Source: Pseudoxanthomonas sp. JBR18
GTDB lineage: Bacteria; Pseudomonadota; Gammaproteobacteria; Xanthomonadales; Xanthomonadaceae
Assembly: GCF_028198165.1 (NCBI RefSeq)
Contig: NZ_CP116339.1
Span: forward strand, 3,665,001-3,729,000
Reading direction: 5' to 3'
Length of the DNA stretch: 64,000 nt
Shown: piece by piece, positions 3,862 through 32,819 of the stretch
Layout: every line of letters starts with the position of its first letter
Position numbering within the stretch: position 1 is the first letter of the stretch
Translations under genes and position numbers: made by a program
Notes under the pieces: model-generated
Database searches by the model: none
The model's input: only the letters and a program-made list of their open reading frames with translations
What the model was told of the DNA's origin: nothing

Positions 3862-3950
3862 TTTCAGGTCCCAGAGCGAGCCATGAATGGAGGGTGTGAG
3901 CTGCGCAGAAATCCGCCCTTGTGAGAGCGAATATTCGCGTTGCTTTTTCA

Positions 3951-3977: not shown

Positions 3978-4156
3978 GCTTGTCTTTCCATAGAATCAGA
4001 AATACACAACGCCATCTTTTTTGATGCGCTCAAGTCGCAACGAAAGACGCGCGATGTGCCGCATCGCTTCGAACACAAGATCCTTGCAGTCTTGAAAGCT
4101 GCTGGTCGTACAAGTCGGTGCGGGTACGGTCCCATGCGTGTCGCGCAGCGGGCCGT

Positions 4157-4187
4157 AAAAAGGCCGCACTCCCGGAGGGGCGCGGCC
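4157..4187 (-). terminator. Rho-independent terminator
   Basis: The minus strand carries GGCCGC, an inner small hairpin, then GCGGCC followed by five T. It lies 33 bases after the stop of the receptor gene ending at 4220. Confidence 0.85.
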
Positions 4188-4219
4188 ATAGGTCCATCGT
4201 CACGCCGGAAGCGTCGTCC

Positions 4220-6559: not shown

Positions 6560-6572
6560 GGGTCCGGTCCCC

Positions 6573-7334: not shown

Positions 7335-7444
7335 GGCGACTCCAGACGTGGTTCGTGATGGAATGCGATGGGCCCCGGGCGCGCGAAAGGCGCGTGCGGT
7401 CGTCGTCCTTGCGCTTGCCCACTGGTGGTGCAGTGCTGGTTTCT

Positions 7445-7471
7445 GTATCGGCGCAGGATTGGCCCTCTTGA
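7445..7471 (-). promoter_or_regulatory. Sigma-28 (FliA) promoter of the barrel-receptor operon
   Basis: The minus strand reads TCAAGAGG, 11 bases, GCCGATAC, about 111 bases before the ATG at 7334. This is 7 of 8 in the -10 box. Confidence 0.8.
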
Positions 7472-7539
7472 GCGTGTGACCCTGTCCGAAGGGGGCTGGC
7501 GCAACGCGTCAGCCCGTCGTGGTGGGTGAGGTGGCCATG

Positions 7540-7566
7540 TCGCGAGGCGCAGATAGCGCCTCGCGA
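7540..7566. repeat. Perfect 11-bp inverted repeat, possible terminator
   Basis: TCGCGAGGCGC, the loop AGATA, then GCGCCTCGCGA, 26 bases after the stop of the receptor ending at 7592. There is no T run on the minus strand, so intrinsic termination is uncertain. Confidence 0.6.
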
Positions 7567-7591
7567 TGGCCGCCGCGCGACCTTACGGTTT

Positions 7592-9829: not shown

Positions 9830-10233
9830 CGCAGTGGTCCAAATGAAAAGAGTTGGGGTGTTAGGAAGCGCGTCGTGTTCTTGGAGATGTCTTGTCTGTG
9901 ATGGATCTGAACCGACAACTCCCGGTGAATTCATCTTGTTGTTTTTGATGAGGCGTTCCGGCTTGGCGTTTGGCCGGCTTGGTGCGCGCGTTCCCTGTCA
10001 TCGCATTTCGAAAATTTCGGTCGCTTTAGTGTCACGTCTGCGGAGATGTGCGAGATGGCGCTAGGGACACGGCGGTTCGACATGCTCGACGCCACGCTCG
10101 ATGGATCCAGGCGTTGCGTCCTTGCACGGCCATGCGCGTGTCGCGGTGCTTGATACCGGGCCGTCAAGCAACGGCCCCGTTTGCCATGTCCCATGACTCA
10201 CTACCTGCATGGCAGGAGTCGATCATCGAGTTC
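9830..10233. other. Intergenic region, no gene seen
   Basis: This separates two receptor genes. It contains a terminator-like hairpin next to the upstream gene's stop (10158-10177). Otherwise I see no coding signal and no clear promoter motif. Confidence 0.5.
10158..10177 (-). terminator. Terminator-like hairpin
   Basis: GGGCCGT, a 6-base loop, then ACGGCCC, 57 bases after the stop of the receptor ending at 10234. There is no T run. Confidence 0.45.
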
Positions 10234-12486
10234 TCAGAACGTCTGCCATTCGTTGCCGCTGGGCGCGGCAGCTGCGACCCGGTGTGCGGTCCTGGCGGGG
10301 GCGCCATGCTTGGCCTGTCGTCGCCCACGGACGGCCGCGACCTCTGCCGTCGGAGCGCTCGGCTGGCGTGAGGCGTTGGGCATCGGTGATTTGATCTTGA
10401 ACACGGCCACCGCCGATGCCAGTTGCCCGGCCTGTTCTTCCATCGAGCGCGCGGCAGCGGTGGCTTCCTCGACCAGGGCGGCGTTCTGCTGGGTGGCCTC
10501 GTCCATCTGGGTGACGGTCAGGTTGACCTGCTCGATGCCCGAGGACTGCTCCTGCGAGGCGGCCGCGATCTCACTCATGATGTCGGTCACCCGCTGCACG
10601 CTTGTCACGATCTCGCCCATGGTCCTGCCGGCCTGGTCGACCAGGGCCGAACCATTGGCGACCTTGCTCACGGAATCGTCGATCAGGCCCTTGATCTCCT
10701 TGGCGGCATTGGCCGAACGCTGGGCCAGGGTGCGCACCTCGGAGGCGACCACGGCAAAGCCGCGACCCTGCTCGCCGGCGCGCGCGGCTTCCACCGCGGC
10801 ATTGAGCGCCAGGATGTTGGTCTGGAAGGCGATGCCGTCGATGACCGAGATGATCTCGGCGATCTTCTTGGAGGAGGTCTCGATGTCGGACATGGTGGTG
10901 ACCACCTGACCGACGACCGCGCCGCCCTTGGAGGCCACGTCGGCGGCGCCGACCGCCAGCTGGTTGGCCTGGCGGGCGCTTTCGGCATTCTGCTTGACCG
11001 TGGAGGTCAGTTCCTCCATCGAAGCGGCGGTCTCTTCCAGGCTGGCGGCCTGCTGCTCGGTCCGGACCGACAGGTCGCTGTTGCCGGCGGCGATTTCGCT
11101 GGAAGCGGTGTTGATGCTGCCCGCGGCATCCTGGATGCCGCTGACGATGTCGGTCAGCCGCTCGATGGTGGCATTGCCATCATCGCGCATGGTGGCGAAC
11201 ACCCCATGGAACTGGCCCTCCATGCGATGGGTCAGGTCGCCGTCGGCGATGGCGCGCAGCAGCCGCGAGAGCGCATGCAGGTTGTCATCGGCCGTGGCCA
11301 TCAGCGTGTTCAACGCCTCGACCATGGCGCGGAAGTCGTACTGGAAGCCTTCCGCGTCGCCGCGCACGCTGAAATCGCCGCTGGCGGCCGCGCCAGACAG
11401 GCGCGAGATCTCCTGGTTGATCGCGGTCAGGTTGTGCTTGACCTCGTCCATGGTCCGGGTGATGACCGCCTTCTCGCCGGGCAGCCGCGTCATGTCCTGG
11501 CTCAGGTCGCCGATGGCATAGCGCTGGGCCAGCTCGATGATGCTCATCTTCACCGCGATATGGTCGGCCACCAACTGATTGGTATCGTCGACCATGCGGC
11601 CGTAGGCGCCAGGGAAGCGCGATGCGTCCATCCGGTGGCTGATGGTGCCGGCTGCGTGCTGTTCGGACATTTCGCGCTGGGCTGCGATCACCGACCTCAG
11701 CTGTTCCTGCATGGTGTCCATGCTGCGGGTCAACAGCCCGAGTTCGTCATTGGCACGCCAGCTGTTGATGGCCTGCAGATCGCCCTGGGCCATGCGCTGG
11801 GCGCTGTTGGACAGCGCCATGATCGGGGCGACGATGGCGCGCTTGAGCCACACTCCCAGCCCCACCAGCAGCGCCAGTGCGATCGCGATGGTGAGCAGCG
11901 CGGAGACCATCAGCTTGCTGCGCGCGTGCGCGACGTTGGCCACGACCGCGGCCTTGGCATCCTCGCTCAGCGCCTGGTTCAGGGCATCCAGGGTCTGAGT
12001 GGGCGGACGATCCATGCCGCGGACCAGCAGGTCGGTGGCGCGGGTGTCATAGGCATTGGACTGGAACTGCACCAGGGCGGCATCGTATTGGGCCTGCAGG
12101 GTTGCATGCTGTGCACCGAAGCGTGCGGCCAGGTCGGCGGCCTTGGCCTTGTCCGCCTGCCTTGCCTCGTTGGCGATCTGGGAGGCGGCATCCTGGACAC
12201 GCTTGCCGCTTTCCTGGAAAGCCTTCAGGTATTTGTCGCGCAGGGACGCATCGCCCCCGCGGATCAGGACGTTCTTCCATTCCTGCACCTGGATCCTGAA
12301 CTCGAGGGCGAGGGCTTCGCCCTTTTGCGCACGGTTGACCGCCGGAGGCACGGTATCGGACAGGCTGAACCATGCCGAGGCCAGCCCTCCCAGGGCGCAG
12401 ATCAGGATCAACCCGAGCCCCAGGCCGAGCGCGGCGTGGATTTTGCTGCTGATGCTGGTCAGGCCAGTGGGGCGGTCGGTGGACAT
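10234..12486 (-). CDS. Methyl-accepting chemotaxis protein (helical sensor)
   Basis: Chemoreceptor of 750 residues. TM1 (about 18-40) is followed by a helical periplasmic region that includes QVQEWKNVLIRG, a motif seen in four-helix-type sensors. TM2 is at about 205-225. HAMP, one extended HAMP-like module ([10 protein letters not shown] at its start) and the canonical signalling domain follow. It ends in NEWQTF, very close to the NWETF tether for CheR/CheB. GGAG lies 9 bases before the ATG at 12486. A sigma-28 promoter lies about 88 bases upstream. Confidence 0.93.
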   Translation of the reverse strand: MSTDRPTGLTSISSKIHAALGLGLGLILICALGGLASAWFSLSDTVPPAVNRAQKGEALALEFRIQVQEWKNVLIRGGDASLRDKYLKAFQESGKRVQDAASQIANEARQADKAKAADLAARFGAQHATLQAQYDAALVQFQSNAYDTRATDLLVRGMDRPPTQTLDALNQALSEDAKAAVVANVAHARSKLMVSALLTIAIALALLVGLGVWLKRAIVAPIMALSNSAQRMAQGDLQAINSWRANDELGLLTRSMDTMQEQLRSVIAAQREMSEQHAAGTISHRMDASRFPGAYGRMVDDTNQLVADHIAVKMSIIELAQRYAIGDLSQDMTRLPGEKAVITRTMDEVKHNLTAINQEISRLSGAAASGDFSVRGDAEGFQYDFRAMVEALNTLMATADDNLHALSRLLRAIADGDLTHRMEGQFHGVFATMRDDGNATIERLTDIVSGIQDAAGSINTASSEIAAGNSDLSVRTEQQAASLEETAASMEELTSTVKQNAESARQANQLAVGAADVASKGGAVVGQVVTTMSDIETSSKKIAEIISVIDGIAFQTNILALNAAVEAARAGEQGRGFAVVASEVRTLAQRSANAAKEIKGLIDDSVSKVANGSALVDQAGRTMGEIVTSVQRVTDIMSEIAAASQEQSSGIEQVNLTVTQMDEATQQNAALVEEATAAARSMEEQAGQLASAVAVFKIKSPMPNASRQPSAPTAEVAAVRGRRQAKHGAPARTAHRVAAAAPSGNEWQTF

Positions 12487-12573
12487 GGAAGCTCCAGAAG
12501 AGGATGGCGTGAAAAGGGGCAGCGGCATCCGTTCTCGCTGGGGTGCTGTAGTGCGACACGTCCGACGTCTTCC

Positions 12574-12600
12574 TTATCGGCCGGGTTGGTGTGGTCCTTG
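12574..12600 (-). promoter_or_regulatory. Sigma-28 (FliA) promoter
   Basis: The minus strand reads CAAGGACC (preceded by T), 11 bases, GCCGATAA, a perfect -10. It serves the receptor starting at 12486. Confidence 0.8.
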
Positions 12601-12674
12601 AGTCACATTCGGCATGTGCGGTTGTTTGCTGTTGTGTCGGCGAATACGGGTTGGCGGCGACGCGTCGCCTTTCC

Positions 12675-12706
12675 GCGCGACGCCCCGGTGGATCGGGGCG
12701 TCGCGC
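12675..12706 (-). terminator. Strong hairpin, probable terminator
   Basis: A 13-bp perfect stem (GCGCGACGCCCCG and its complement) with a 6-base loop begins 5 bases after the stop at 12711. There is no T run on the minus strand. Confidence 0.6.
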
Positions 12707-12710
12707 CAGC

Positions 12711-15512
12711 TCAGAACTCCTGCCAGTGGGTGTCGGCCGTCGCCACCTGTGCCTGCTGGGAGCGCGCCTGCGTGGAAGCGGCCGCGCGGGCCGGTCGCAG
12801 CGCGGTCACCGGCAGGGAGGGCACCGGGGGAGCCGACTTGGCCGTCTCGGGTTTGGTGCCGCTGGCACGTTGCCCGATGCGGAAGATCGACACGGCGGTC
12901 CCCAGCTGGGTGGCTTGATGCTCCATCGCCCGCGCCGCGGCCGTTGCTTCTTCCACCAACGCCGCGTTCTGCTGGGTGGTCTCGTCCATCTGGGTCACGG
13001 CCAGGTTGATCTGCTCGATGCCCGAGGACTGCTCCTGCGAGGCCGCGGAGATCTCGGCCATGATGTCGGTCACCCGCTGCACCGAAGCCACGATCTCGCC
13101 CATGGTCTGGCCGGCCTTGTTGACCAGCTCCGAGCCAACGGCGACCTCGGAAACCGAGGCGTCGATGAGCAGCTTGATCTCCTTGGCCGCGTTGGCCGAA
13201 CGCTGGGCCAGGGTACGCACTTCGGAGGCGACCACCGCAAAGCCACGGCCCTGTTCGCCGGCACGTGCGGCCTCCACCGCGGCGTTGAGCGCCAGGATGT
13301 TGGTCTGGAAGGCGATGCCGTCGATCACCGTGATGATGTCGGCGATCTTGCGGGACTGCCGCTCGATGCCGGACATGGTGCTGACCACCTTGCCGACCAC
13401 TTCTCCACCGCGCGAGGCGACATCGGCCGCGCCCACCGCCAATTGGTTGGCCTGGCGCGCGTTGTCCGCGTTCTGTTTGACCGTGGAGGTCAGTTCCTCC
13501 ATCGAGGCGGCGGTTTCCTCCAGGTTGGCGGCCTGCTGTTCGGTCCGCGTGGACAGGTCGGCATTGCCCGCGGCGATCTCGGTGGCGGCGGTATTGATGT
13601 CGCCGGCGGCCTGCTGGATGCGGCTGACGATCTCGGTCAGGCGCTCGACCGTGGTGTTGGCATCGTCGCGCATGGTGGCGAACACGCCCTGGAACTGGCC
13701 TTCCATGCGCACGCTAAGGTCGCCCTGGGCCACCGCGCGCAGCAGGTGCGAGAGCGAGGCCAGGTTGCCGTCGGCGGTGGCCATGAGCTGGTTGAGGCTT
13801 TCGACCATGGCGCGGAATTCGAACTGGAAGCGCTCGGCGTCGCCCCGGGTGCTGAAGTCGCCGCCGGCCGCGGCCCCGGACAGGCGCGCGATCTCCTGGT
13901 TGATCGCCGTCAGGTTGTGCTTGACCTCGTCCATGGTCTGGGTGATGACCGCCTTCTCGCCGGGCAGGCGCGCCATGTCCTGGCTCAGGTCGCCGATCGC
14001 ATAGCGCTGGGCCAGCTTGATGATCTGCATCTTGACCGAGATGTGGTCGGCCACCAGCTGGTTGGTGTCGGCGACCATGCGGCCGTACTCGCCGGGGAAG
14101 CGCTCGGCGTCCATGCGGTAGCTGATGGTGCCGGCGGCATGCTGGCTGGACATCTCGCGCAGCGCGGTCAACACGGCGGACAGCTGATTGACCGTGGCCT
14201 CGACATCGTTGCGCATGGCATCGAACACGCCATGGAACTGGCCGTCCATGCGCACGTCCAGCCTGCCGTCGGCCACGCCGCGCAGCACGCCGGAGATGGC
14301 CGCCAGGTTGACATCGGCGGTGGTCATCAGCGCGTTGAGGTTGTCGACCATCGCGCGGAAGTCGTACTGGAAGCGCTGGGCATCGCCGCGCTGGCTGAAG
14401 TCGCCCTGGGCCGCTGCGGCGCTCAGGCGGGAGATCTCCTGGCTGAGGTCGCTCAAGCTGCGCTTGACCTCGTCCATCGTGCGGGTGATGACCGCCTTTT
14501 CGCCGGGCAGGCGCGGCATGTCCTGGCTCAGATCGCCGATGGCGTAGCGCTGGGCCAGCTCGATGACCTGCATCTTGACCGCGATGTGTTCGGCGACCAG
14601 TTGGTTGGTGTCGGCCACCATGCGGCCGAACTCGCCCGGGAAGCTGGCCGCGTCCATGCGGTGGCTGATGGCGCCGGCCGCGTGTTGCTCGGACATCTCA
14701 CGCTGAGCGGCAGTGACCGCCTTGAGCTGGTGCTGCATGCGCTGCATGCTCTCCAGCAGCAGGCCTGGCTCGTCACGCGACGTGCTGACGATGGCGTTGT
14801 CCAGGTTGCCCTGCGCGATGGCGTGCGCAACGCGCGCGGCCTGGCCCAGGGGCCGTGCAACGGTCCGGCTGAGGGCCCAGCCCAACACCGCCGCCAGCGT
14901 CGCGATCAGCGCCATCGCGCAGGCGAGGGCGGTCACGGTGGCGGTGTGATCGGTCTCGGAGGCCAGCACTTCCTCGCCTAGCTCGCGCATGTTGAGCTCG
15001 GACAGCGCCTTCAGCGCGGCGAACAGTTCACGACGGGCCGGACGCGACTGGTCGGCGGAAATCTCGCGCGCACTGGCGAAATCGCCCTTGGCCACCGCCG
15101 CGGCGATCCGCTCATGCGCGGCGAAGTAGGCACCGCGTGCGTTCTCGACCTTGGCGAACACGGCTGACTCGGCGGCCGAGGCGTCGGCGGACAGGGTGCG
15201 GTAGCCGGCCTCTTCCTCCAGGATCTTACGCTGGGTCTGCTCCAGCAATTGGTCGTACTCGCGGATCTTGGCCGCATCGCCATCCTGCGCGAGCTGGGAG
15301 ATCTCGTAGGTGCGGTATTCGCCCAGCAGCGCGCGCATCTCGGACAGGTGTCCGACCGAGGGCATCAACTGGTGGCTGATCGCGCCAAGCTGGACGTTGG
15401 CAGTATGTAGACGCAGCAGCGAAAAGCCGCCCAGCGCCAGGGTCATCACCGTGGTCACGATGAAGGCCAGCGCGAGCTTCTTCGCGATGGGTAGGTTGCG
15501 GAACCAGTTCAT
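12711..15512 (-). CDS. Methyl-accepting chemotaxis protein with duplicated poly-HAMP module
   Basis: The largest receptor, 933 residues against about 750 for its neighbours. TM1 is at about 13-35, followed by a four-helix-bundle periplasmic region (40-190), TM2 at about 195-215 and HAMP from 216. Two tandem copies of a 181-residue module follow (about 268-448 and 449-629; REMSEQ at 271, REMSSQ at 452), then the canonical signalling domain. It ends in HWQEF, an xWxxF docking tail. The start at 15512 has GAGGTG upstream. Its signalling block is more diverged from the others. It has its own sigma-28 promoter and a hairpin terminator. Confidence 0.93.
13623..14711 (-). repeat. In-frame tandem duplication of a HAMP module (2 x 181 codons)
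   Basis: Two 543-base copies inside the receptor gene. Both encode a REMSxQHAAG start, a [19 protein letters not shown] segment, [21 protein letters not shown] and GDFSxRGDA. The neighbouring receptors carry one copy. Confidence 0.8.
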
Positions 15513-15603
15513 GGGCACCTCGTCTGCGCTCGATGTTGGCGTGACGGGATGACGCGCAGCGCACGTGTGCAGTGGCGTTTTCACGTCGTGTCCCGTGCCA
15601 TAA

Positions 15604-15630
15604 GTAACGGCCTGGGGCCGGCGCGCTTGA
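15604..15630 (-). promoter_or_regulatory. Sigma-28 (FliA) promoter
   Basis: The minus strand reads TCAAGCGC, 11 bases, GCCGTTAC, about 92 bases before the ATG at 15512. The -10 variant resembles that of fliC. Confidence 0.7.
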
Positions 15631-15677
15631 GCGAATTTGGTGCCCGTGCTCATTCGACTTTGGTCGATCCGGACACG

Positions 15678-15705
15678 AAAAAGCCCCGCGCGAGGCGGGG
15701 CTTTT
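15678..15705 (-). terminator. Rho-independent terminator after cheA
   Basis: A 9-bp stem (AAGCCCCGC/GCGGGGCTT) with a 5-base loop and a T run lies 24 bases after the cheA stop at 15729. Confidence 0.85.
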
Positions 15706-15728: not shown

Positions 15729-17732
15729 TCAGGCGGCCTGTTGGACCTTGAGCGAGCGCACCAGGCCACCGATGTCCACGATCAGGGCGACGCGACCGTC
15801 ACCCAGGATGGTGGCACCGGAGATGCCGGCGATGCGGCGGTAGTTGTTCTCGATGTTCTTGACCACCACCTGTTGCTGGCCGACCAGTTCGTCCACTTCC
15901 AGCGCGATCTTCTGGCCGTCGGCCTCGACCACCACCACCAGCGGGTCGGCCTGGACGGTGCGTCCGTAGCCGTAGGCATCGCTCAGGGACATGATCGGCA
16001 GGTACTCGCCGCGGACCCGCAGCACACGGCCTTCGCCGCCCATGGTGCGGATGTCCTCGGGCAACGGCTGCAGGGCTTCGAGCACATAGGCCAGCGGCAG
16101 GATCACCGTTTCGCCAGCGACCGAGACCGTCATGCCGTCCAGGATCGCCAGGGTCAGCGGCAGGCGGATCAACACCCGGGTGCCGTGGCCGGTGCTGCTT
16201 TCCAGCTGCACCTCGCCGCCCAGTGCCTGGATGTTGCGGCGGACCACGTCCATGCCCACGCCACGTCCGGACAGGTCGGTGACCGCGTCGGCGGTGGAGA
16301 AGCCCGGGGCGAAGATCAGGTCCCAGACCTGGCTGTCGGTGGGGTTGTCCGGCACCACGATGCCGCGCTCGGCCGCCTTGGACAGGATCTTCTCGCGGTT
16401 CAGGCCACGACCGTCGTCGCTGACTTCGATGACGATGTGCCCGCCTTGGTGTGAGGCGGCCAGGGTGATGGTGCCGGTCTCGTCCTTGCCCGCGCTGCGG
16501 CGTGCATCGGGCAATTCCAGGCCATGGTCGATGGAGTTGCGGACCAGGTGCACCAGCGGATCGGCGATCTTCTCGATCAGGCCCTTGTCCAGCTCGGTGC
16601 TCTCGCCGATGGTGCGCAGGCGCACCTGCTTGCCCAGGCGGCTGGACAGGTCGCGTACCAGGCGCGGGAAGCGGCGGAATACCGCGTCCACGGGCAGCAT
16701 GCGCACGCCGATCACCGCTTCCTGCAGGTCGCGCGTGTTGCGCTCCAGCAGGTCCAGGCCGGCGAACAGCTGTTCGGCATGGGCCGGGTCGATGGCGCCG
16801 GAGACCTGCTTGAGCATGGCCTGGGTGATGACCAGTTCGCCGACCAGGTTGATCAGGGCATCGACCTTGTCGACGCTGACGCGGATGGAGCTTTCGGCTT
16901 CCTGGGCAGCGGCGTTGCCTGCCGGCGCGTTGGCGGCCACGGTCGCGGCCGGTGCAGCGGTGCTGGCGGTGGGCGCGGCGGTCAGCACCGGCGGCGGCTC
17001 GACGGCCAGGCTCGGCGGCGGCACATCGCGGATCTCCAGCTCGCAGTCGTCCTCGACCCAGGCGAAGGTGTCGGCGATCGCGCTGCGGGGAATCTTGCCG
17101 ATCAGGCCCAGATCCCAGGCCAGATAGGCTTCCAGCGGATCCAGGTCCTTGAAGGCCGGCAGGCGCTCGCTGCGGCACGCCACTTCCAGCGGGCCGAGGT
17201 TTTCCAGCTCACGGATGATGCGCAGCGGGTCGTTGCCGCTCATGAACATGCCCGGCGCCGGCGTGAAGGCGATCTTCCAGGCTTCCGGCTCGGCCGGTGG
17301 CGGCGCGGCTTGCGCCTTGGCCGGGCCAGCGGCGGCGGCCGGGGTGCCATCCAGCGCCTGCTGCAGGCGATCACGCACGGCCTGGACGACCTGGGGATCG
17401 GCCGGGGTGCCGTGCTCGGCTTCACGCAGCAGGGCACGCAGGACGTCGACCGAGGCCAGGATCGCATCGATGGCGTTGCCTTCGACCTCGCGCTTGCCGG
17501 CACGCAGCTCGTCGAGCAGCGTCTCCAGCACGTGGGTCAGGCCGGCCATCGACTCGAAGCCGAAGGTGGCCGCGCCGCCCTTGATCGAGTGCGCCGCGCG
17601 GAAGATCGAGTTGATGACCTCCGCATCGCGGTTGCCCTGTTCAAGCGACAGCAGGCCGGCTTCCATGGCGTCCAGGCCTTCGCGGCTTTCCTCGAAGAAG
17701 GTGGCGTGGAAACGCTGAAGGTCCATGCTCAT
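15729..17732 (-). CDS. cheA: Chemotaxis histidine kinase CheA (with P2 domain)
   Basis: Sensor kinase of the receptor array, 667 residues. An Hpt domain has the phospho-accepting His48 in AAHSIKGGA. A CheY-binding P2-like region spans about 155-240, then a Pro/Ala-rich linker and the dimerisation domain. The HATPase has N-box HLVRNSIDHG, DDGRGL and GRGVGMD, and a CheW-like domain ends the protein. It lies 32 bases downstream of a cheY and is the last gene of the STAS-cheY-cheA operon. A second, shorter CheA without P2 is encoded at 26899-28512. An alternative ATG lies two codons inside. Confidence 0.95.
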   Translation of the reverse strand: MSMDLQRFHATFFEESREGLDAMEAGLLSLEQGNRDAEVINSIFRAAHSIKGGAATFGFESMAGLTHVLETLLDELRAGKREVEGNAIDAILASVDVLRALLREAEHGTPADPQVVQAVRDRLQQALDGTPAAAAGPAKAQAAPPPAEPEAWKIAFTPAPGMFMSGNDPLRIIRELENLGPLEVACRSERLPAFKDLDPLEAYLAWDLGLIGKIPRSAIADTFAWVEDDCELEIRDVPPPSLAVEPPPVLTAAPTASTAAPAATVAANAPAGNAAAQEAESSIRVSVDKVDALINLVGELVITQAMLKQVSGAIDPAHAEQLFAGLDLLERNTRDLQEAVIGVRMLPVDAVFRRFPRLVRDLSSRLGKQVRLRTIGESTELDKGLIEKIADPLVHLVRNSIDHGLELPDARRSAGKDETGTITLAASHQGGHIVIEVSDDGRGLNREKILSKAAERGIVVPDNPTDSQVWDLIFAPGFSTADAVTDLSGRGVGMDVVRRNIQALGGEVQLESSTGHGTRVLIRLPLTLAILDGMTVSVAGETVILPLAYVLEALQPLPEDIRTMGGEGRVLRVRGEYLPIMSLSDAYGYGRTVQADPLVVVVEADGQKIALEVDELVGQQQVVVKNIENNYRRIAGISGATILGDGRVALIVDIGGLVRSLKVQQAA

Positions 17733-17764: not shown

Positions 17765-18130
17765 TCAGCCCAGGACTTTCTGGACGGTGGCGACCAGCTG
17801 TTCGGGGTTGAACGGCTTGACCAGCCAGCCGGTGGCGCCGGCGGCCTTGCCTTCGGACTTCTTGTCGGCCGCCGATTCGGTGGTGAGCATCAGCATCGGC
17901 GTGAACTTGTAGTCGGCCAGCTGGCGCAGCTCACGGATCAGCGAGATGCCGTCCATGTTGGGCATGTTGACGTCGGTGACCACCGCGTTGAAGCGCGAGC
18001 CCTTGGCCCGGCCCAGCGCCACCGCGCCGTCTTCGGCCTCTTCGACGGCAAAGCCGGCCGAGGTCAGTGCAAAGCTGACCATCTGGCGCATCGACGCCGA
18101 ATCGTCCACTACCAAGATGCGTGCGCTCAT
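17765..18130 (-). CDS. cheY: CheY-like response regulator
   Basis: A single receiver domain of 121 residues with the acidic pair Asp9/Asp10, phospho-acceptor Asp53, Thr83 and Lys105. The position equivalent to the CheY switch tyrosine is Trp102 (GWLVKPF), unlike the second CheY of this window. It overlaps the STAS gene by 4 bases (ATGA) and precedes cheA. It is probably phosphorylated by the neighbouring CheA. Whether it binds the motor or acts as a phosphate sink is not clear. Confidence 0.92.
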   Translation of the reverse strand: MSARILVVDDSASMRQMVSFALTSAGFAVEEAEDGAVALGRAKGSRFNAVVTDVNMPNMDGISLIRELRQLADYKFTPMLMLTTESAADKKSEGKAAGATGWLVKPFNPEQLVATVQKVLG

Positions 18131-18667: not shown

Positions 18668-19921
18668 TCAGTGCAGCAGGCGTTCGGCGTCGAGCAGGAT
18701 CATGGGGCGCTGAGCCAGGCGCGCGACGCCGCGGAACAGGTGGTTGGAAATTCGGCAGATGCGCGCGTTGTCCGGCGGCTCGATCTGGTTCTCGGTGAGG
18801 CTGGTGACATCTTCCACGGCCGACACACGCAGGCCCAGGGTCTCGCCGTTTTCCTCCAGCACCACGATGCGCGTCTGCGCGTCGCTTTCGATCGGGCTGG
18901 CGCCCAGGTGCAGCCCTAGATCGATGACCGGGACCACCTGGCCGCGCAGGTTCATGATGCCCAGCACCGAGGGACCCGTGCCGCGCAGGGCCAGCAGCGG
19001 CGCGGGCAGGACGACCTCCTGCACCTTCAGCAGTTCCAGCGCATAGGCCTGGCTGCCGCAGCGCAGGCGCAGCCAGCGCGAGCTGCGGTCGCGGGCGCGG
19101 CGGTGCGGGGTGTTGGCGCTTTCCAGCGGCTGGGAGGGCGGCAGGAAAGATTGCAGGTTGGACGGCACGTTGGCATGCGCCGCCTGGGGCTGGGGAGGCG
19201 TCGCACGGGCGGCCGGTGCGGCCATGATCGCGGCCAGCGCCGGATCGGATTCGGCCTCGGCCAGGATCGAGGCGGCGATGTCGTCCGCCGAGGGGCCGGC
19301 CGGCGCCGATGCGGCGGGCGCAGCCATGATCGCGGCCAGGGCCGGATCGGACTCGGCTTCGGCCAGGATGGAGGCGGCGATGTCGTCCGCCGAGGGGCCG
19401 GCCGGCGCCCGCGCGGCGGGTGCCGCCATAATCGCGGCCAGCGCCGGATCGGATTCGGCTTCGGCCAGGATCGAGGCGGCAATGTCTTCGGGCGAGGGGC
19501 CAGCCGGCACCCGCGCGGCGGGAGCGGCCATGATCGCGGCCAAGGCCGGATCGGATTCGGCCTCGGCCAGGATAGAGGCGGCGATGTCTTCGGGCGAAGG
19601 ACCGGTCGGCACCCGCGTGGCGGGCGCGGCCATGATCGCGGCCAGCGCCGGATCGGTTTCGGCCTCGGCCAGGACCGAGGCGGCAATGTCCTCGGGCGAG
19701 GGGCCGGTCGGCATCGGTGTGGCGGGGGTGGCCATGATCGCGGCCAGGGCCGGATCGGCTTCGGCCTCGGCCTCGGCCAGGACCGAGGCGGCCACGTCCT
19801 CGTGCAACGGAGCGACCGGTGCGGGTGCGGCGACCGCCGCGACAGGCGCCGGCGTCTCCGGCGCGGCCAGGTCGTGCAGCAGGCCTTCCAGATAGTCGTC
19901 GATGACGCCTGGCGTGCTCAT
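18668..19921 (-). CDS. parP: ParP-like CheW-domain array scaffold with six tandem repeats
   Basis: A 417-residue protein. The N-terminus (MSTPGVIDDYLEGLLHDL) is followed by an Ala/Pro-rich stretch. Six 34-residue repeats (residues 38-243, first copy 36 long) follow, with consensus PSPEDIAASILAEAESDPAL, then AAIMAAPA. After a short linker comes a C-terminal CheW domain (about 280-417; VLGIMNLRGQVVPVIDL). Directly after a ParA-like gene (4-base overlap), this matches the ParC/ParP pair known from Vibrio and Pseudomonas, which places chemotaxis arrays at the pole. The repeats are unusual. Each begins like the CheY-binding peptides of FliM and CheZ, but that likeness is my inference. Confidence 0.85.
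   Translation of the reverse strand: MSTPGVIDDYLEGLLHDLAAPETPAPVAAVAAPAPVAPLHEDVAASVLAEAEAEADPALAAIMATPATPMPTGPSPEDIAASVLAEAETDPALAAIMAAPATRVPTGPSPEDIAASILAEAESDPALAAIMAAPAARVPAGPSPEDIAASILAEAESDPALAAIMAAPAARAPAGPSADDIAASILAEAESDPALAAIMAAPAASAPAGPSADDIAASILAEAESDPALAAIMAAPAARATPPQPQAAHANVPSNLQSFLPPSQPLESANTPHRRARDRSSRWLRLRCGSQAYALELLKVQEVVLPAPLLALRGTGPSVLGIMNLRGQVVPVIDLGLHLGASPIESDAQTRIVVLEENGETLGLRVSAVEDVTSLTENQIEPPDNARICRISNHLFRGVARLAQRPMILLDAERLLH
19193..19810 (-). repeat. Six tandem 102-bp coding repeats
   Basis: Exact 102-base periodicity: ATGATCGCGG-type landmarks fall at 19224, 19326, 19428, 19530, 19632 and 19734. The first coding copy has six extra bases. High identity between copies suggests recent expansion or ongoing recombination. 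Confidence 0.95.
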
Positions 19922-20700
19922 GCCGCTTCCTCCATGGCCACGGCACTGCTGGCCAGCAGCCAGGCAAGAGCGCGTTCGTAGGCGGCCTGGCCACGGCTGG
20001 GCTGGGCGTTGGAGACCACCGGCACGGTCAGGGACCTGATGTTGCAGATGCGGGTATCGACCGGGACGGCCTCGGTCCAGACCCGCTCGCCGTAGGTGTC
20101 CTGCATCTGGCGCAGGGTGTCGTGGCCAGCACGGGTGCGGCGGTCAAACAGGGTCGGCAGGATCGACTGGGGCAGGGGTCGGCGGCGCGAGCGCTCCACC
20201 ATGTCCACGGTGCGCACCATGCTGGTCAGGCCATGCAGGGCCAGGGGCTCGGCCTGGGTGGGGATGATCACCCGGTCGGCGGCGGCCAGCGCATTGATCA
20301 TCAGCAGCCCCAGGGTGGGGGGGCAGTCCAGCAGCACGTAGTCGTGCTGGCCTGCGTGGCGGGTCAGCGCCTGCTGCAGGGCCAGACCCAGGCCGGGCTG
20401 GTTGGCGCTGCGGCGCTCCAGCGTGGCCAGGGCGGTCTGCCCGCATACGTAGTCCAGGTGTTCGATCTCGCTGTGGTGCGCAAGCGTGGTCAGGTCCGCC
20501 GGCGGGGTGCCGAACAGTTCCACCACGCCGGCCGGCGGTGGGTCGAGCGGAATGTCGAAGGCCCGCGTCAGTGAGGCGTGCGGGTCCAGGTCGATCAGCA
20601 GCACGCGCTGGCCCTGAAGGGCCAAACCGCGCCCGAGCGCGAGGGTGGTCGTGGTCTTGCCGACGCCGCCCTTCTGGTTGGCAATGGCCCAGATGCGCAT
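19918..20700 (-). CDS. parC: ParA-like ATPase, polar array positioning (ParC)
   Basis: MinD/ParA-family ATPase of 260 residues with the deviant Walker A KGGVGKTT (residues 10-17), a DLDPH motif and Walker B VLLDCPPTLG. It lacks a DNA-binding N-terminal extension and no parB or parS is nearby. That and its place between motD and the CheW-domain scaffold point to ParC, which recruits chemotaxis arrays to the pole, not to chromosome partition. It overlaps motD by one base (TGATG) and the scaffold gene by four. Confidence 0.88.
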   Translation of the reverse strand: MRIWAIANQKGGVGKTTTTLALGRGLALQGQRVLLIDLDPHASLTRAFDIPLDPPPAGVVELFGTPPADLTTLAHHSEIEHLDYVCGQTALATLERRSANQPGLGLALQQALTRHAGQHDYVLLDCPPTLGLLMINALAAADRVIIPTQAEPLALHGLTSMVRTVDMVERSRRRPLPQSILPTLFDRRTRAGHDTLRQMQDTYGERVWTEAVPVDTRICNIRSLTVPVVSNAQPSRGQAAYERALAWLLASSAVAMEEAA

Positions 20701-26898: not shown

Positions 26899-28512
26899 TC
26901 AGCTCCGCAGGCCGTCCACGTCCAGGATCAGGGCCAGGCGGCCGTCGCCGATGAGGGTGGCACCGGCATAGCCGGGCAGGCCTCGCAGGGAACGCGGCAG
27001 CGGCTTGATGACCACTTCCTCGCGGCCGCGGACCTGGTCGACGACCAGGCCGACGCGGGATTCGCCAGCCTGCAGTACCACCACGGTCAGCAGCGGGCAG
27101 CTTGGGGCATCCAGGCCCAGCCACTGGCGCAGGTCCACCAGCGGCAGGGTGTGCGAGCGGCGGTCAAGCACCGCGCGGCCGTCGAACCAGCCCAGCGAGG
27201 ACTGCGGCGCGTGCAGCACCTCGACCACGCGGGCCAGCGGCAGAGCATAGACGTCCGCGCCAGCCTGGACCAGCAAGGTGGGCAGGATTGCCAGGGTCAG
27301 CGGCACGCGGATCAGGAAGCGGCTGCCGCGGCCCAGTTCGGACTGGATGGTGATCTGGCCGCTGAGTTCGCGGATGCGGGACTGGACCACGTCCATGCCC
27401 ACGCCGCGTCCGGAAATGTCGGTGACCTCGGTCTTGGTCGAGAAGCCCGGCAGGAAGATCAGGTGCAGGCATTCCTCGGTGCTCAGGCGCGCGGCGGCTT
27501 CCGGATCGATCAGGCCCTTTTCGCGGGCCTTGGCGCGCAAGCGCTCGGGATCGATGCCGGCGCCATCGTCCTGCACCTCGATGCTGACGTAGTCGCCTTC
27601 CTGCTGGGCCGACAGGCGCACGTGGCCGCTGCGCGGCTTGCCCGAGGCCTCGCGCAGGGCGGGCGCCTCGACGCCATGGTCGATGGAGTTGCGCACCAGA
27701 TGGACCAGCGGATCGGCCAGGGCCTCGACCAGGTTGCGATCCAGCTCGGTGTCGGCGCCGACCAGTTCCAGCTCGACTTCCTTCTCCAGGGTGCGGGCGA
27801 CATCGCGCGCCACCTTGGGGAAGCGCGAGAACACCTTGCCGACCGGCTGCATGCGGGTGCGCATCACCGCGGTCTGCAGGCGCGCGGTGGCCACGTCCAG
27901 GCCGCTGACGGCGCGATCCAGTTCTTCGTCCTTGAGCCGGATGCGCAGGGTCTTGAGGCGATTGCGGGCCAGGACCAGTTCGCCGATCAAGTTGACGATG
28001 GCATCCAGGCGCTTGGTGTCCACGCGGACGGTGTGCTCGGCTTCGGCCGGTTTGGCCGCCGCGGCCTGGGCCTTGGGCGCGGCAGGCGCCGGCGCCGCCA
28101 CGGGCGTGGGTTTGCTGGGCGCCGCGGCCGGGACGTCGCCGGCCGCGAACTGCGCGATCAGCGCCGGCGGGGCCGGCGTGAGCGGCTGTCCGCCGGAAAA
28201 GGCGTCCAGCATGTCCTTCAGGTAGTCCAGCGACTGCTGGGCGGCGTCGAAGTGGCGCGCCTGCAGCGTGGTCTGGCCGGCGCGCGCCATGCCCAGGGTT
28301 TCCTCGGCGGCGTGGCACAGCTCGACCATCGGGTGGATCGCCAGGAACCCGGCGCCGCCCTTGAGCGTGTGGAAGCCGCGGAACACGGCGTTGAGTTGCT
28401 CCGAATCACCGGGCGCCTGTTCCAGCGCGACCAGCTGCTCGCCCAGGCGCTCCAGGATTTCCTGGGCCTCGATGATGAAGTCGGCAGCGATGTCGTCGGG
28501 AACGGCGCTCAT
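26899..28512 (-). CDS. cheA: Chemotaxis histidine kinase CheA (no P2 domain)
   Basis: Kinase of 537 residues. An Hpt domain has His48 in FRGFHTLKGGA. An Ala/Pro-rich linker (about 115-160) stands where P2 would be. The dimerisation domain, HATPase (N-box HLVRNSIDHG, DDGAGID, GRGVGMD) and CheW-like domain follow. It lies 3 bases after cheZ in the fliA-cheY-cheZ-cheA order known from polar-flagellated gammaproteobacteria. The usual downstream cheB is absent; the glycan block follows instead. Without P2, CheY phosphorylation should be less efficient, or depend on direct contact. Confidence 0.94.
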   Translation of the reverse strand: MSAVPDDIAADFIIEAQEILERLGEQLVALEQAPGDSEQLNAVFRGFHTLKGGAGFLAIHPMVELCHAAEETLGMARAGQTTLQARHFDAAQQSLDYLKDMLDAFSGGQPLTPAPPALIAQFAAGDVPAAAPSKPTPVAAPAPAAPKAQAAAAKPAEAEHTVRVDTKRLDAIVNLIGELVLARNRLKTLRIRLKDEELDRAVSGLDVATARLQTAVMRTRMQPVGKVFSRFPKVARDVARTLEKEVELELVGADTELDRNLVEALADPLVHLVRNSIDHGVEAPALREASGKPRSGHVRLSAQQEGDYVSIEVQDDGAGIDPERLRAKAREKGLIDPEAAARLSTEECLHLIFLPGFSTKTEVTDISGRGVGMDVVQSRIRELSGQITIQSELGRGSRFLIRVPLTLAILPTLLVQAGADVYALPLARVVEVLHAPQSSLGWFDGRAVLDRRSHTLPLVDLRQWLGLDAPSCPLLTVVVLQAGESRVGLVVDQVRGREEVVIKPLPRSLRGLPGYAGATLIGDGRLALILDVDGLRS

Positions 28513-28515
28513 GGC

Positions 28516-29124
28516 TTACAACCCGAGGTTGGAGAGCAGGTCATCGGCGTCGTGCTGGGACACGCCGTGCTTGTCCAGGCCGGCCAGGGCAGGGCCCGCC
28601 AGGCCATTGGCCACCGGCGATCCCTCCTTGGGAGGCAGGCCCAGCGCGCCGAAGCCTTCATGCACACGGCGCACGATGCCGGCCACGCGGCGGATGATCT
28701 GTCCGGTCAGGTCCTGGAAGCTCTGGGCCAGGGCCATCTCGGTGAGGTTGTGGCGGATGCGGTCCAGGATTTCGCCCTGGTCGGCGTTCAGGCCGCCGGC
28801 GCGCAGCTGGTCGGCCAGGGTGCGGCATTCCTCGGCCAGGTCTAGGGTGCGGTGGCTGGCCTGTTCGGTCATGGCCACCACGTGGTCCAGGCGCGAGCAG
28901 GCATCGTCCAGCTCGCCGGCTTCGCTCGGCACGGTGGGCAGGTCGCCCAGGGCCTGGCCCAGGTCGCGTGCCAGCCGGCTCAGCCCCTGCATCATCGGCT
29001 TGGTGCGCCAGGCGGCCAGGGTGTCGATCTCCACCCGCCAGGCGCCCTCGTCGCCGCTTTCCAGCGCGTCCAGGGCCCGCTGCAGGCTCTCGATGAGCGC
29101 GCCGCGCTCGGTCGTGGCGTTCAT
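28516..29124 (-). CDS. cheZ: Chemotaxis phosphatase CheZ
   Basis: A 202-residue helical protein that speeds dephosphorylation of CheY-P. The catalytic segment is ALAQSFQDLTGQ, where the first or second Gln of QSFQD corresponds to the E. coli catalytic Gln147. The C-terminal CheY-tethering peptide DADDLLSNLGL is clear. It overlaps the last base of cheY and is followed by cheA. Confidence 0.93.
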   Translation of the reverse strand: MNATTERGALIESLQRALDALESGDEGAWRVEIDTLAAWRTKPMMQGLSRLARDLGQALGDLPTVPSEAGELDDACSRLDHVVAMTEQASHRTLDLAEECRTLADQLRAGGLNADQGEILDRIRHNLTEMALAQSFQDLTGQIIRRVAGIVRRVHEGFGALGLPPKEGSPVANGLAGPALAGLDKHGVSQHDADDLLSNLGL

Positions 29125-29516
29125 CAGGCGGCCGCTCCCAGGCGTTCGAAGATCTTGCCCAGCTTTTCTTCCAGGGTCTGGGCGGTGAACGGCTTGATGA
29201 TGTAGCCGCTGACGCCGGCCTGCGCCGCCTCGATGATCTGCTCGCGCTTGGCCTCGGCGGTGACCATCAGCACCGGTAGGTGCTTGAACTTGTCATCGGC
29301 GCGGATGTTGCGCAGCAGGTCGATGCCGGTCATGCCGGGCATGTTCCAGTCGGTGACCACGAAATCGAACGGCGATGCCCGCAGCGCCGCCAGGGCGCTG
29401 TTGCCGTCTTCGGCTTCGGCGGTGTTGGTGAAGCCCAGATCGCCGAGCAGATTCTTGACGATACGTCGCATCGTCGAGAAATCGTCCACGATCAAAATCC
29501 GCATGTTCTTGTTCAC
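29124..29516 (-). CDS. cheY: Chemotaxis response regulator CheY (motor type)
   Basis: A 130-residue receiver with Asp11/Asp12, phospho-acceptor Asp56 in [10 protein letters not shown], Thr in MVTAEA, an aromatic switch residue in GYIIKPF and its Lys. This is the classic motor-binding CheY. The start is a GTG at 29516: GGAG lies 8 bases before it, whereas the in-frame ATG at 29504 would have the same site about 20 bases away. Partners are CheZ and CheA downstream and FliM/FliN at the motor. Confidence 0.95.
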
Positions 29517-29534
29517 CGCTGACTCCTAGGTTCT

Positions 29535-30284
29535 TTAATCTTCGTCTTCGAGGCCGGAATCGGCCATTTCGAATGCCTTGAGGCGACCGCGCAGGCGCAC
29601 GGTGGCCTGGCCGTGGATCTGGCAGACGCGCGATTCGCTCACCCCCAGTACGGCACCGATTTCCTTCAGGTTCAACTCCTGCTCGTAGTAGAGCGAGAGC
29701 ACCAGCTGTTCGCGCTCGGGCAGCTGCGCGATGGCCTTGCCCAGCTCGCGGCCGAATTCCTGCCGTTCGAGCATCTGCTGCGGATTGGGCCCGCCCTTGG
29801 CGACGGTGTCCAGCTCGCCCTGGTCCTCGATGCGCGACTCCAGGCTGAGCACGTGCCCGCGCGAGGCGTCTTCCATCAGGCGCATGTAGTCCGGCAGGGG
29901 CATGTCCATCGCCGCGGCCACCTCGTTGGGGGCGGCGGCGCGGCCGGTGGCCTGCTCGATCTTGCGGATCGCGGCGGCCGCGTCGCGGGCGCGGCGATGC
30001 ACCGAGCGCGGCACCCAGTCGCCGCGGCGGATCTCGTCGATCATCGAACCGCGGATGCGGATCGAGGCGTAGGTCTCGAACGAGGCGCCCTGGTCGGCGT
30101 CGTAGCTGCGCGAGGCCTCCAGCAGGCCGATCATCCCGGCCTGGATCAGGTCGTCGATTTCCACGCTGGCCGGCAGGCGCGCGGCCAGGTGATGGGCGAT
30201 GCGGCGCACCAGGTCGGCGTGCTGGGTGATGTAGTCGTTGTCGTTGTTGCGCTGGACGGCGCGGTACTGGGCCAGGGCGCTCAT
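29535..30284 (-). CDS. fliA: Flagellar sigma factor FliA (sigma-28)
   Basis: A 249-residue sigma factor with region 2 (DLIQAGMIGLLEA, YASIRIRGSMIDEIR), region 3 and region 4 helix-turn-helix (LKEIGAVLGVSESRVCQIH). It directs late flagellar and chemotaxis transcription. Matching promoters occur in this window before fliC, fliS, motC, STAS-cheY-cheA and several receptor genes. It overlaps flhG by 4 bases. No flgM is visible here. Confidence 0.97.
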   Translation of the reverse strand: MSALAQYRAVQRNNDNDYITQHADLVRRIAHHLAARLPASVEIDDLIQAGMIGLLEASRSYDADQGASFETYASIRIRGSMIDEIRRGDWVPRSVHRRARDAAAAIRKIEQATGRAAAPNEVAAAMDMPLPDYMRLMEDASRGHVLSLESRIEDQGELDTVAKGGPNPQQMLERQEFGRELGKAIAQLPEREQLVLSLYYEQELNLKEIGAVLGVSESRVCQIHGQATVRLRGRLKAFEMADSGLEDED

Positions 30285-31165
30285 GCGGCCACCCCCGGGC
30301 GGATCATCCGCTCGACGAAGAACTCCACGTTGCCGCGCGGGGCGGTCGGGGCCTGCCAGCGGGCGGTGCGGCGGGCGATTTCGGCGATGGCCTGGGCCGA
30401 GGGGCTGGCCGGGTAGGCCCTGACCACCGGCTGCTGGCGCTGCACCGACAGGCGCAGCCAGTCGTCCTGCGGCACGCAGCCCAGATAGTTGAGTGACACA
30501 TCGCCCAGGAACTTCTCGCAGACCCGGCCGAGCTTGTCGTACAGCAGGCGGCCTTCGTTGGGGTCGCGGACCATGTTGGCCACGATCTGCACCCGGTCCA
30601 CGCCGCGCTCGCGCGAGAGGACCTTGATCAGGGCGTAGGCGTCGGTGATCGAGGCCGGCTCGTCACAGACCACCACCACCGCATCCTGGGCGGCCTGACA
30701 GAAGGTCAGCACGCTGTCGGTGATGCCCGCGGCGGTGTCGATCACCATGACATCCAGGTCGCGCTCCAGCTCGGAGAAGACGTTGATCAGCCCGACGTGC
30801 TGGCCCGGGGCCAGCTCGGCCATGTGCCGGCGGCCGGAGGCGGCCGGGACCACCATCAGCCCATTGGGCATGTCGATGATCGACTCTTCCAGGGTGCAGC
30901 GGCCGGCGACCAGGTCGGCCAGCGTGTAGCGGGGCGTCAGGCCCAGCAACACGTCGACGTTGGCCAGACCCAGGTCGGCGTCGAGCAGCAGGGTCCGCTT
31001 GCCCATGTCCGCAAGGGCCATGGACAGGTTGACCGACAGGTTGGTCTTGCCGACACCACCCTTGCCACCGGTCACGGCGATGGTCCGCACCGGGCCCAGC
31101 GGCTCGGGTCGGGTCGCCGACAGGGGGAAGGCGTTGGTCAGCTTGGCGTAGTCACGCGACTGCAT
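30281..31165 (-). CDS. flhG: Flagellar number regulator FlhG/FleN
   Basis: MinD-like ATPase of 294 residues with Walker A KGGVGKT (35-41) and switch motifs LLDADLGLANVD and VIDTAAGI. It limits flagellar number, acting on FlhF and FleQ. The ATG at 31165 has GGAG upstream and lies within the end of flhF (14-base overlap). The N-terminus reads MQSRDYAKLT. The DQAxxLR motif that stimulates FlhF in other species is not evident. Confidence 0.94.
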   Translation of the reverse strand: MQSRDYAKLTNAFPLSATRPEPLGPVRTIAVTGGKGGVGKTNLSVNLSMALADMGKRTLLLDADLGLANVDVLLGLTPRYTLADLVAGRCTLEESIIDMPNGLMVVPAASGRRHMAELAPGQHVGLINVFSELERDLDVMVIDTAAGITDSVLTFCQAAQDAVVVVCDEPASITDAYALIKVLSRERGVDRVQIVANMVRDPNEGRLLYDKLGRVCEKFLGDVSLNYLGCVPQDDWLRLSVQRQQPVVRAYPASPSAQAIAEIARRTARWQAPTAPRGNVEFFVERMIRPGVAA

Positions 31166-32819
31166 GGGTCTGCTCCGGGATACAGGGCTTATCGGCATCG
31201 CGCCGCAAATCTTCAAGGCGCAAAACCAGGCTGGGGGCATTGGCGCGGTGCAGGTCGTCCGGCACGTGCTGTCCATCGGTCACCCAGGTGATGGGGAGGC
31301 GGTGATCCACGACCACCGACAGGGCGCTGCCAAAGCGTCCGGTCTCGTCGAGCTTGGTCAGGATCACGCCCTGCGGCGCGGCCCCGGCGAAGCGGCGCAC
31401 CACCTCGTCCAGGTCCGAAAAGTGGGCATTGGCCGGCAGCACCAGCAGCGAGCGGACCGTGCGCGAGGCGCGCAGCCAGTTCAGCTGGGCGGCCAGGGCG
31501 CGGTCGCGCTGGCCCAGGCCGGCGGTGTCGATCAGCACCAGCTTGTAGTCGGCCAGGCGCACCAGCAGCTGCTGCAGGGAGGCGTCGCTGTCGGCCTCGT
31601 GCACCGCGATGCCCAGCTGGCGGCCGTAGCTGTGCAGTTGTTCGCGGCCGCCGACGCGGATGGTGTCGGTGGTGACCAGGGCGATGTCGCGGGCGGCATG
31701 GGTCTGCAGGAAGCGCGAGGCCAGCTTGGCGATGGTGGTGGTCTTGCCGGCGCCGGTCGGGCCGACCAGGGCGATCACGCCGCCTTCTTCCAGCGGGTCG
31801 CCGTGGGCGATGGGCAGGCGCTGGGACAACAGGCCCAGCATCAGGCCGCGGCCGCGGTGCAGCTCCAGGTCGGCCGGGATCTGCATGACCACATCCCGGA
31901 TCAGGCCGGCATCGAAGCCGTAATCGTCCATCAGCTCCAGGGCCTGGGCGCGCACGGGCGACCCGCGCAGGCGCTCGTCGGTGAGGCGGTTCATCTCACG
32001 CTCGATCATCTGGCGCATCAGGGCCAGCTCGTCGCGGAGTTGGCTGAGTTGGGCGTCATCCTGCGGCTTGGGGAACACCGGCGCGGCGGGAAGGGGGGCC
32101 ACTGGAGCGGCGGCCACCGGTGCCGGGGCGGCAGTGGCGACCGGCGCAGCGGCCATGATCGCCGGCTCGGCCTGGACCGCGGGCGCTGCCTGGATCGGCG
32201 CGGGGGCCGGGACGGCGGGTGCCACCGGCGGGGCGGTGACCGGATCGCGCGGGAAGGCGGCCACGGCCGGGGCCGGCGCGGCGGCGGCCAGTTCCTGGGG
32301 CTGGACCGGCTGCATGTATTCGGCGAACGGGCGCGGCGCGGCGGGCGCGCGCACCGGGACGGCCGGCGACTCGACTTCGGCTTGGGCAACACGCGGAGCC
32401 GGCGCCGGCGCGACGGGGCGGGCCGGGCGGGAAGCCACGGTGGCCGTCGGTGCGGGGGCAGGCGCGGCCTGCTCGCGGGGCTGGCCGCCCAGGCGACGCT
32501 CGGTGATGGCCGCCATCATGGCCATGGCCGAGTTGGGGGCTGCCTCGGCGGGCACGCGCGGGGCCGGGTTGGCCGCCGAGTAGCTCACCTGCGGCGGCAC
32601 CGGCGCAGTCGGGGCGGGCATCGGGGCGCTGGCCGGCTCCGGCCGCACCGCGTCCAGGGCGCGCTGGACCAGGGCCTCGTCGTAGTTGCTGGCGGCCACG
32701 ATCTCGATGCCTTCCTCGGTGCGGCGATTGGAGAGGATCACCGCGTCAGGGCCATGTTCTTCGCGGACCATGCGCAAGGCGTTGCGCATGTCGGGAGCTA
32801 CGAAGCGCTTGATCTTCAT
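31152..32819 (-). CDS. flhF: Flagellar SRP-like GTPase FlhF
   Basis: A 555-residue GTPase that sets the polar site of flagellar assembly. The basic N-terminal domain (MKIKRFVAPDMRNALRMVRE) is followed by a very long Ala/Pro-rich linker (about 60-250). The NG domain has G1 VGPTGAGKTTT at about residue 353, DTIRVGGREQL, LIDTAGLGQRD and TKLDETGRFG. No canonical Shine-Dalgarno sequence is seen at the ATG. A 170-base gap to flhA may hold its promoter, but I could not define it. Confidence 0.95.
   Translation of the reverse strand: MKIKRFVAPDMRNALRMVREEHGPDAVILSNRRTEEGIEIVAASNYDEALVQRALDAVRPEPASAPMPAPTAPVPPQVSYSAANPAPRVPAEAAPNSAMAMMAAITERRLGGQPREQAAPAPAPTATVASRPARPVAPAPAPRVAQAEVESPAVPVRAPAAPRPFAEYMQPVQPQELAAAAPAPAVAAFPRDPVTAPPVAPAVPAPAPIQAAPAVQAEPAIMAAAPVATAAPAPVAAAPVAPLPAAPVFPKPQDDAQLSQLRDELALMRQMIEREMNRLTDERLRGSPVRAQALELMDDYGFDAGLIRDVVMQIPADLELHRGRGLMLGLLSQRLPIAHGDPLEEGGVIALVGPTGAGKTTTIAKLASRFLQTHAARDIALVTTDTIRVGGREQLHSYGRQLGIAVHEADSDASLQQLLVRLADYKLVLIDTAGLGQRDRALAAQLNWLRASRTVRSLLVLPANAHFSDLDEVVRRFAGAAPQGVILTKLDETGRFGSALSVVVDHRLPITWVTDGQHVPDDLHRANAPSLVLRLEDLRRDADKPCIPEQTHAVA

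Follow-up and report, generated by a model that had tools for sequence, protein, structure and literature searches.

A ParP-like chemotaxis scaffold with six conserved repeat units in its linker, a possible multivalent docking arm

Introduction

Proteins of the ParP family bind the polar ATPase ParC through an N-terminal segment and have a CheW-like domain that lies within the receptor array. In the Vibrio protein, L209 and W305 are the residues of this AIF domain that bind MCP and CheA. The gene analyzed here lies in a window of 64,000 nucleotides (the whole stretch of DNA that was examined) from the single-contig genome of Pseudoxanthomonas sp. JBR18, and it raises the question of what a ParP-like protein would do with six tandem copies of a short unit in the linker between these two regions. 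A sequence-only reading of the window had proposed that the units resemble the CheY-docking peptides of FliM and CheZ and that they may form a multivalent tail for CheY or ParC. The Vibrio ParP (PMC5706961) shares with the window protein the parC neighbor, an N-terminal interaction region, a long linker and a C-terminal CheW-like domain. Its linker is described as proline-rich, however, and unlike the window ParP no tandem motif array is mentioned in the available text of that paper. A survey of titles and the beginnings of abstracts in the open literature likewise returned no ParP with a repeat array, a novelty that is provisional since subscription papers lay outside the scope of the survey.

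Results

The window gene codes for a protein with the features of a ParP, namely a C-terminal CheW-like domain, an adjacent ParA-family parC gene and a conserved N-terminal DDYLxxLL segment (Table 1). The ParP identity proposed from the sequence alone is supported by the PF01584 match at the C-terminus, by the adjoining parC and by comparison with orthologues. The parP and parC genes overlap by 4 bases (19918-19921), and parP is followed by a gene for a STAS protein and then by the genes for CheY2 and CheA2. Residues D8, D9, Y10, L11, L14 and L15 are invariant in all 28 ParPs chosen for comparison, and parC is followed by a start of the Y[LF]xxLL type at 35 of 38 loci that belong to other families within the same order and class, a count for which the motif itself was the selection criterion. 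The linker between the N-terminal segment and the CheW domain is long and rich in Ala and Pro. Elsewhere in the window, positions 1612-15704 hold five chemoreceptor-like frames (recognized by eye), with another frame between two of them. Four of the five end in WQEF or WQTF, which we take to resemble the CheR/CheB docking pentapeptide, and the fifth ends in SESEF.

Table 1. Features of the parP locus and of its candidate partners (positions in the window)
Feature	Position	Strand	Remarks
parP-like gene	18668..19921	(-)	417 aa; N-terminal segment, repeat linker, CheW/AIF-type domain; from ORF, PF01584 and orthologues
CheW-like (AIF) domain	18674..19072	(-)	residues 284-416; PF01584 E 2.5e-32
N-terminal motif MSTPGVIDDYLEGLLHDL (YLxxLL), presumed ParC-interaction region	19868..19921	(-)	conservation and AlphaFold2 helix 9-18
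Repeat unit 1	19700..19807	(-)	36 residues, 108 bases; begins LHEDV; LHEDVAASVLAEAEAEADPALAAIM...
Repeat unit 2	19598..19699	(-)	34 residues, 102 bases
Repeat unit 3	19496..19597	(-)	34 residues, 102 bases
Repeat unit 4	19394..19495	(-)	34 residues, 102 bases
Repeat unit 5	19292..19393	(-)	34 residues, 102 bases
Repeat unit 6	19190..19291	(-)	34 residues, 102 bases; spacer runs into post-array linker
parC, ParA-family ATPase	19918..20700	(-)	AAA_31 6.2e-42; ParA-type structures
Operon CheY2	17765..18130	(-)	same segments as in CheY1 read TTESAADKKS and GWLVKPF
CheA1, flagellar cluster	26899..28515	(-)	538-residue frame; Hpt and dimerisation domains 54 residues apart
Flagellar CheY1	29124..29525	(-)	candidate client; reads GYIIKPF(TA)
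MinD/ParA-family ATPase by flagellar cluster	30281..31279	(-)	alternative candidate client; PF10609 3.6e-21

Across the 64-kb window, Tandem Repeats Finder reported the parP array and no other (19209-19772, period 102, 5.5 copies, 88% match), and in translation it comprises six units covering residues 39-244 (19190-19807). The six copies noticed earlier were thus recovered, with the exact length of 34 residues and 102 bases holding for units 2-6 and not for the longer unit 1, which also departs from the SPED or SADD start that had been ascribed to every unit. An AlphaFold2 model of the protein is poor overall (mean pLDDT 51.8), the repeat units being its best-modelled part. In it, units 2-6 each contain a helix of 11-14 residues, units 2-5 have a second of 7-8 residues, unit 1 is helical over only 6 residues and coil runs between the units. 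The CheW domain is badly modelled and the model gives no contacts, so it is silent on partners. Among solved structures there was no useful relative of the array, the search giving two weak matches (E 0.034 and 0.9). When residues 72-245 by themselves served as the query for homologues, 7997 candidates were scored and three proteins returned; each is a CheW protein, and one is the query itself. The repeats also scored 41.5 bits against PF16947 (Ferredoxin_N), which is above the curated cut-off of 25, but no single stretch passed E 0.001 and we set this assignment aside, taking it as a match to a repetitive Ala-rich unit.

The copies differ from each other in a patterned way. When the five in-phase copies (units 2-6) were compared codon by codon, the 22-residue core (unit positions 3-24, EDIAASILAEAESDPALAAIMA) gave a pN/pS of 0.11 as compared to 0.57 for the spacer, a spacer value to which the end of the sixth spacer contributes, where the post-array linker has already begun. 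Synonymous changes did accumulate within the core. These ratios are descriptions and not tests, since copies in one gene are non-independent and may be homogenised. The same was seen in relatives, for which nine arrays of three unit types were chosen and one (L035, core 0.57 versus spacer 0.91) was dropped as misregistered: in each of the eight arrays kept, the core had the lower ratio of the two, at 0.00-0.22 in seven of them and 0.51 versus 0.80 in the array of L009. This indicates that purifying selection acts on the window core from copy to copy and that the units are kept intact as units; the array is therefore not just a linker that drifts, and selection on it is supported. Searching six genomes with the core signature AE[..][DE][SA]DPA[LF] as a DNA pattern gave 31 matches, spread over five of the genomes. 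By position, 29 of the matches lie at parP; in the window genome all five are inside parP.

A clear orthologue (E < 1e-40) was present in 23 of 61 genomes. Arrays occur at the same position of ParP in Xanthomonas, in Stenotrophomonas and in relatives from the same genus, with a unit that differs by lineage. Specifically, DPA units (for example GPTPEELAAAVLAEADADPALAGIMSQQ and APSAADIAADFLAEMDADPAF) are found in the window protein, in Xanthomonas and in the nearest same-genus relative (G007), while Stenotrophomonas and its kin have LLDELMNDPAL, WDDLPDEVIYE and LEAAFEAAA units, G005 has the unit LLAEFDSEFP, and sister ParPs from the same genus carry one to three copies of DDEFEALLDxLHG. Of 152 distinct ParPs whose start could be read, 150 carry one or more counted units. 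The sample is biased to the nearest Xanthomonas, the protein search behind it covering the best 120 of 1086 proteins, and L082 and L084 lie outside it; DLITDDEFEALLDQLHGDGAPT units occur in 16 of the 152, all from same-genus genomes. Linkers without counted units are those of L007 and L020 and the short ones of L082 and L084. In the Stenotrophomonas-like linkers L075-L083 two other units, EPTWDDLPDEVIYET and DDAALEAAFEAAA, alternate.

As to the suggestion that copy number may vary between strains, it does differ between proteins assigned to the same named Xanthomonas species. There are six and four copies in ParPs of X. cucurbitae and five and four in X. perforans (counted by eye), and in X. 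fragariae five, four and four by eye or four, three and two by regular expression, counts that are affected by some of the Xanthomonas contigs being drafts in which repeats can collapse. The Xanthomonas-like parP array L074 (from G096) has nine units at the DNA level, with a frame that shifts inside the array at an ambiguous base of the assembly. In a tree of ParP and CheA, the window genome and G007 group with Xanthomonas-like genomes and not with the rest of their GTDB genus, which may reflect gene transfer or a mixed genus.

We addressed the likeness to CheY-docking peptides with a profile built from 26 gammaproteobacterial FliM N-termini, which was moved along every linker and, for comparison, along 1000 shuffled versions of it. 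The two reference peptides are indeed encoded within the window, where FliM starts MSDLLSQDEIDALL and CheZ ends DADDLLSNLGL. The window linker reached a best score of 7.05 bits (z 1.55), which was equalled by 80 of 1000 shuffles, and this best place falls outside the register in which the units had been read as FliM-like. In that register the units score -0.81 to 1.01 bits, as compared to 15-17 bits for the motif of the sister lineage and 37.6 for FliM itself. The spacing also differs, being I-x3-IL in the window unit and I-x2-LL in FliM. The alignment of SPEDIAASIL to SQDEIDALL was rejected given register scores near zero and the shuffle result. The likeness that fails for the window unit is found instead in orthologues from the same genus, where all 11 linkers of the DDEFEALL group that were tested (of 16 such linkers) gave z 3.8-6.6. 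B-type linkers gave z 1.2-3.4 (10 tested), that of P0016 being equalled by just 3 of 1000 shuffles, and linker types C, D, E, F and H were at chance (z <= 1.42). For 35 ParP starts at the order and class level, no FliM-like match of at least 9 bits was present in the next 250 residues. FliM-like sites in ParP therefore look like a property of the taxonomic family to which the window genome belongs. The EIDAL peptide of FliM and the C-terminal peptide of CheZ (the latter compared by eye only) are short acidic motifs like those of the sister ParPs. In FliM and CheZ there is one copy at the end of the protein, whereas in ParP several copies stand on a scaffold.

The sister motif is also present in CheA. 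A DEFEALL pattern gave 12 matches in five of seven genomes, six in parP (five of these assigned by position) and six in the P1-P3 linker of cheA1, where CheA1 is the CheA encoded beside cheZ. At the class level a CheA frame lies beside cheZ in 23 of 27 loci, and 21 of these 23 have the motif between P1 and P3, for a total of 58 instances (L209-L235) of the type [DE]ITDDEFEALLDxLHGKG, often two or three per protein and at least six in one. A profile built from these 58 instances, two of which are from a CheA of the family of the window genome (L235) and none from a ParP, matched all four sister ParPs tested with z 15-17. For the window ParP it gave z 0.18, equalled by 382 of 1000 shuffles, and descent of the window unit from the CheA motif is thus unsupported. 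Motif-bearing CheA linkers match the FliM profile with z 4.1-6.3 (8/8 tested), while CheA linkers without the motif (window, G096) have z values below zero. The motif of the CheA P1-P3 linker is repeated in the low-complexity linkers of sister ParPs and is absent from both the window CheA1, in the stretch between its Hpt and dimerisation domains, and the window ParP unit. No paper on the CheA motif strings was found in the open literature.

As P2 of CheA is the CheY docking site (PMC7534058, available part) and lies in the P1-P3 stretch, the presence of a FliM-like motif there suggests CheY docking. Pfam reported no P2 in three motif-bearing CheAs, in the window CheA1 or in CheA1 of G023, which is a weak argument since Pfam also reported none in CheA2, the control. 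CheA2 itself (15729-17732) aligns from end to end with an E. coli-type CheA model, and its Hpt and dimerisation domains are 180 residues apart. With 54 versus 180 residues in this stretch, the two CheAs of the window genome may dock CheY differently.

We also compared copy numbers in CheA1 and ParP across 35 genomes with both linkers. An identical ParP (L038) stands in for that of G103, and the set leaves out G001 and G012, whose ParPs are cut by contig ends, and G058, G141, G161 and G181, whose CheA linkers were unextracted. CheA1 has zero, one or two copies of the motif. Zero copies are found in the window genome, with six DPA units in its ParP, and in G096, with four counted in the translated part. 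One copy is found in 14 genomes whose ParP has two or three copies of the same motif, in three whose ParP has five DPA units, and in G005, whose ParP has four units of another kind. Two copies are found in G011 and G036, which have one copy in ParP, in four genomes without a unit and in nine with Stenotrophomonas-type units. For the shared motif alone the Spearman correlation is -0.51 (p 0.0016), with independent contrasts on the ParP/CheA tree giving -0.11 (p 0.55). Adding the DPA, NDPAL and AEF units, a grouping of 'helical' units (WDD and AAF left out) that was chosen after the data had been seen, gives -0.88 and contrasts of -0.66 (p 2e-5). With all units the values are -0.11 (p 0.52) and -0.06 (p 0.74). 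A trade-off between CheA and ParP thus appears for some choices of unit only, and we regard it as a lead.

Discussion

The explanation toward which we lean, by a modest degree, is that this is a ParP whose linker is a multivalent docking arm. The N-terminal segment would tie ParP to ParC and the CheW-like domain would sit in the receptor array, while six short units, predicted to be helical and set on flexible Ala/Pro spacers, would hold several copies of a partner beside that array. That the units bind a partner is suggested by their conservation and by the orthologues.

Flagellar CheY1 is the likeliest single client of such an arm, an identification that we offer as tentative. Two points favor it: the motif of the sister arm occupies the place in CheA where CheY docks and is similar to the N-terminus of FliM, and the window CheA1 lacks that motif. 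The CheY1 segments listed in Table 1 presumably read as in FliM-binding CheYs, and those of CheY2 differ, so CheY2 would be less likely to bind FliM-type peptides. A further proposal, speculative and in our judgment improbable as a whole, is docking in trans, in which the motif-less CheA1 would get its CheY from a ParP arm that took over docking, with a family-wide trade between kinase and scaffold and with copy number tuning the amount of regulator at the pole.

Among other candidate clients, ParC and FlhG are real alternatives, since the N-terminus of FliM binds not only CheY (PMC6946799) but also FlhG (PMC12826062), a ParA-family relative of ParC, as described in the available parts of these papers; a FliM-like motif can accordingly serve a ParA-family ATPase. 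By its position the window ATPase at 30281..31279 would be FlhG. We nevertheless regard ParC or FlhG as an unlikely client, and the reading that units bind one of them to strengthen the polar tether by avidity, with CheY uninvolved, as similarly doubtful. The N-termini of Vibrio ParPs bind ParC (PMC5706961, available text) and parC overlaps parP here, but the N-terminal YLxxLL motif is present with or without an array, so ParC binding probably occurs without need of one. In addition, the sister motif is carried by CheA, which the available text of PMC5706961 and PMC7534058 describes as binding ParP and not ParC.

Another reading is self-association, in which the sister motif would be the LID element of CheA that is bound by the CheW-like domain of ParP. 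If so, arms carrying the motif would link ParP molecules together and make the array thicker, with the window units doing so in another sequence. As described in the accessible portions of PMC7534058 and PMC5706961, the LID lies between P2 and P3, binds the AIF domain of ParP and is confined to CheAs that occur with ParC/ParP. The sister motif is moreover the sole recurrent element in the CheA P1-P3 linkers compared (by eye). However, the identity of motif and LID is our own conjecture, and self-association would make the FliM likeness of the motif a matter of chance. ParP itself as the client is given a low probability, as is this reading in general.

It is also improbable that the sister motif represents a short helix of the SHOCT kind in place of a FliM-like CheY dock, in which case it would give no hint about CheY. 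SHOCT (PF09851) matches all three CheA frames tested (E 3e-7 to 2e-4, one above the curated cut-off) and all three sister ParPs tested (E 4e-5 to 8e-3, all below it), and the window ParP has no SHOCT match at E up to 1. This match to the sister motif is partial, however, the best stretch in ParP covering 11-13 of 28 positions, and the LL pair of the motif (DDEFEALLDQLHG in a sister ParP) keeps the spacing of FliM and not that of the SHOCT consensus. Finally, a slippage-prone Ala-rich spacer in which length matters and sequence does not would fit the lineage-specific units, the variable copy number and the four linkers without counted units (L007, L020, L082 and L084), but is very unlikely given the strong synonymous bias in the core and the rarity of the core signature away from parP.

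What is known of ParP is its role in tethering the receptor array to the cell pole. If the docking-arm reading is true, ParP would also collect signaling proteins, and it would do so by means of repeated, selected units that change by lineage and that in sister species have the motif of the CheA linker. The ParP arm offers a direct route to the questions of how CheA1 finds CheY and which partners the linker motifs in gammaproteobacterial CheAs have.
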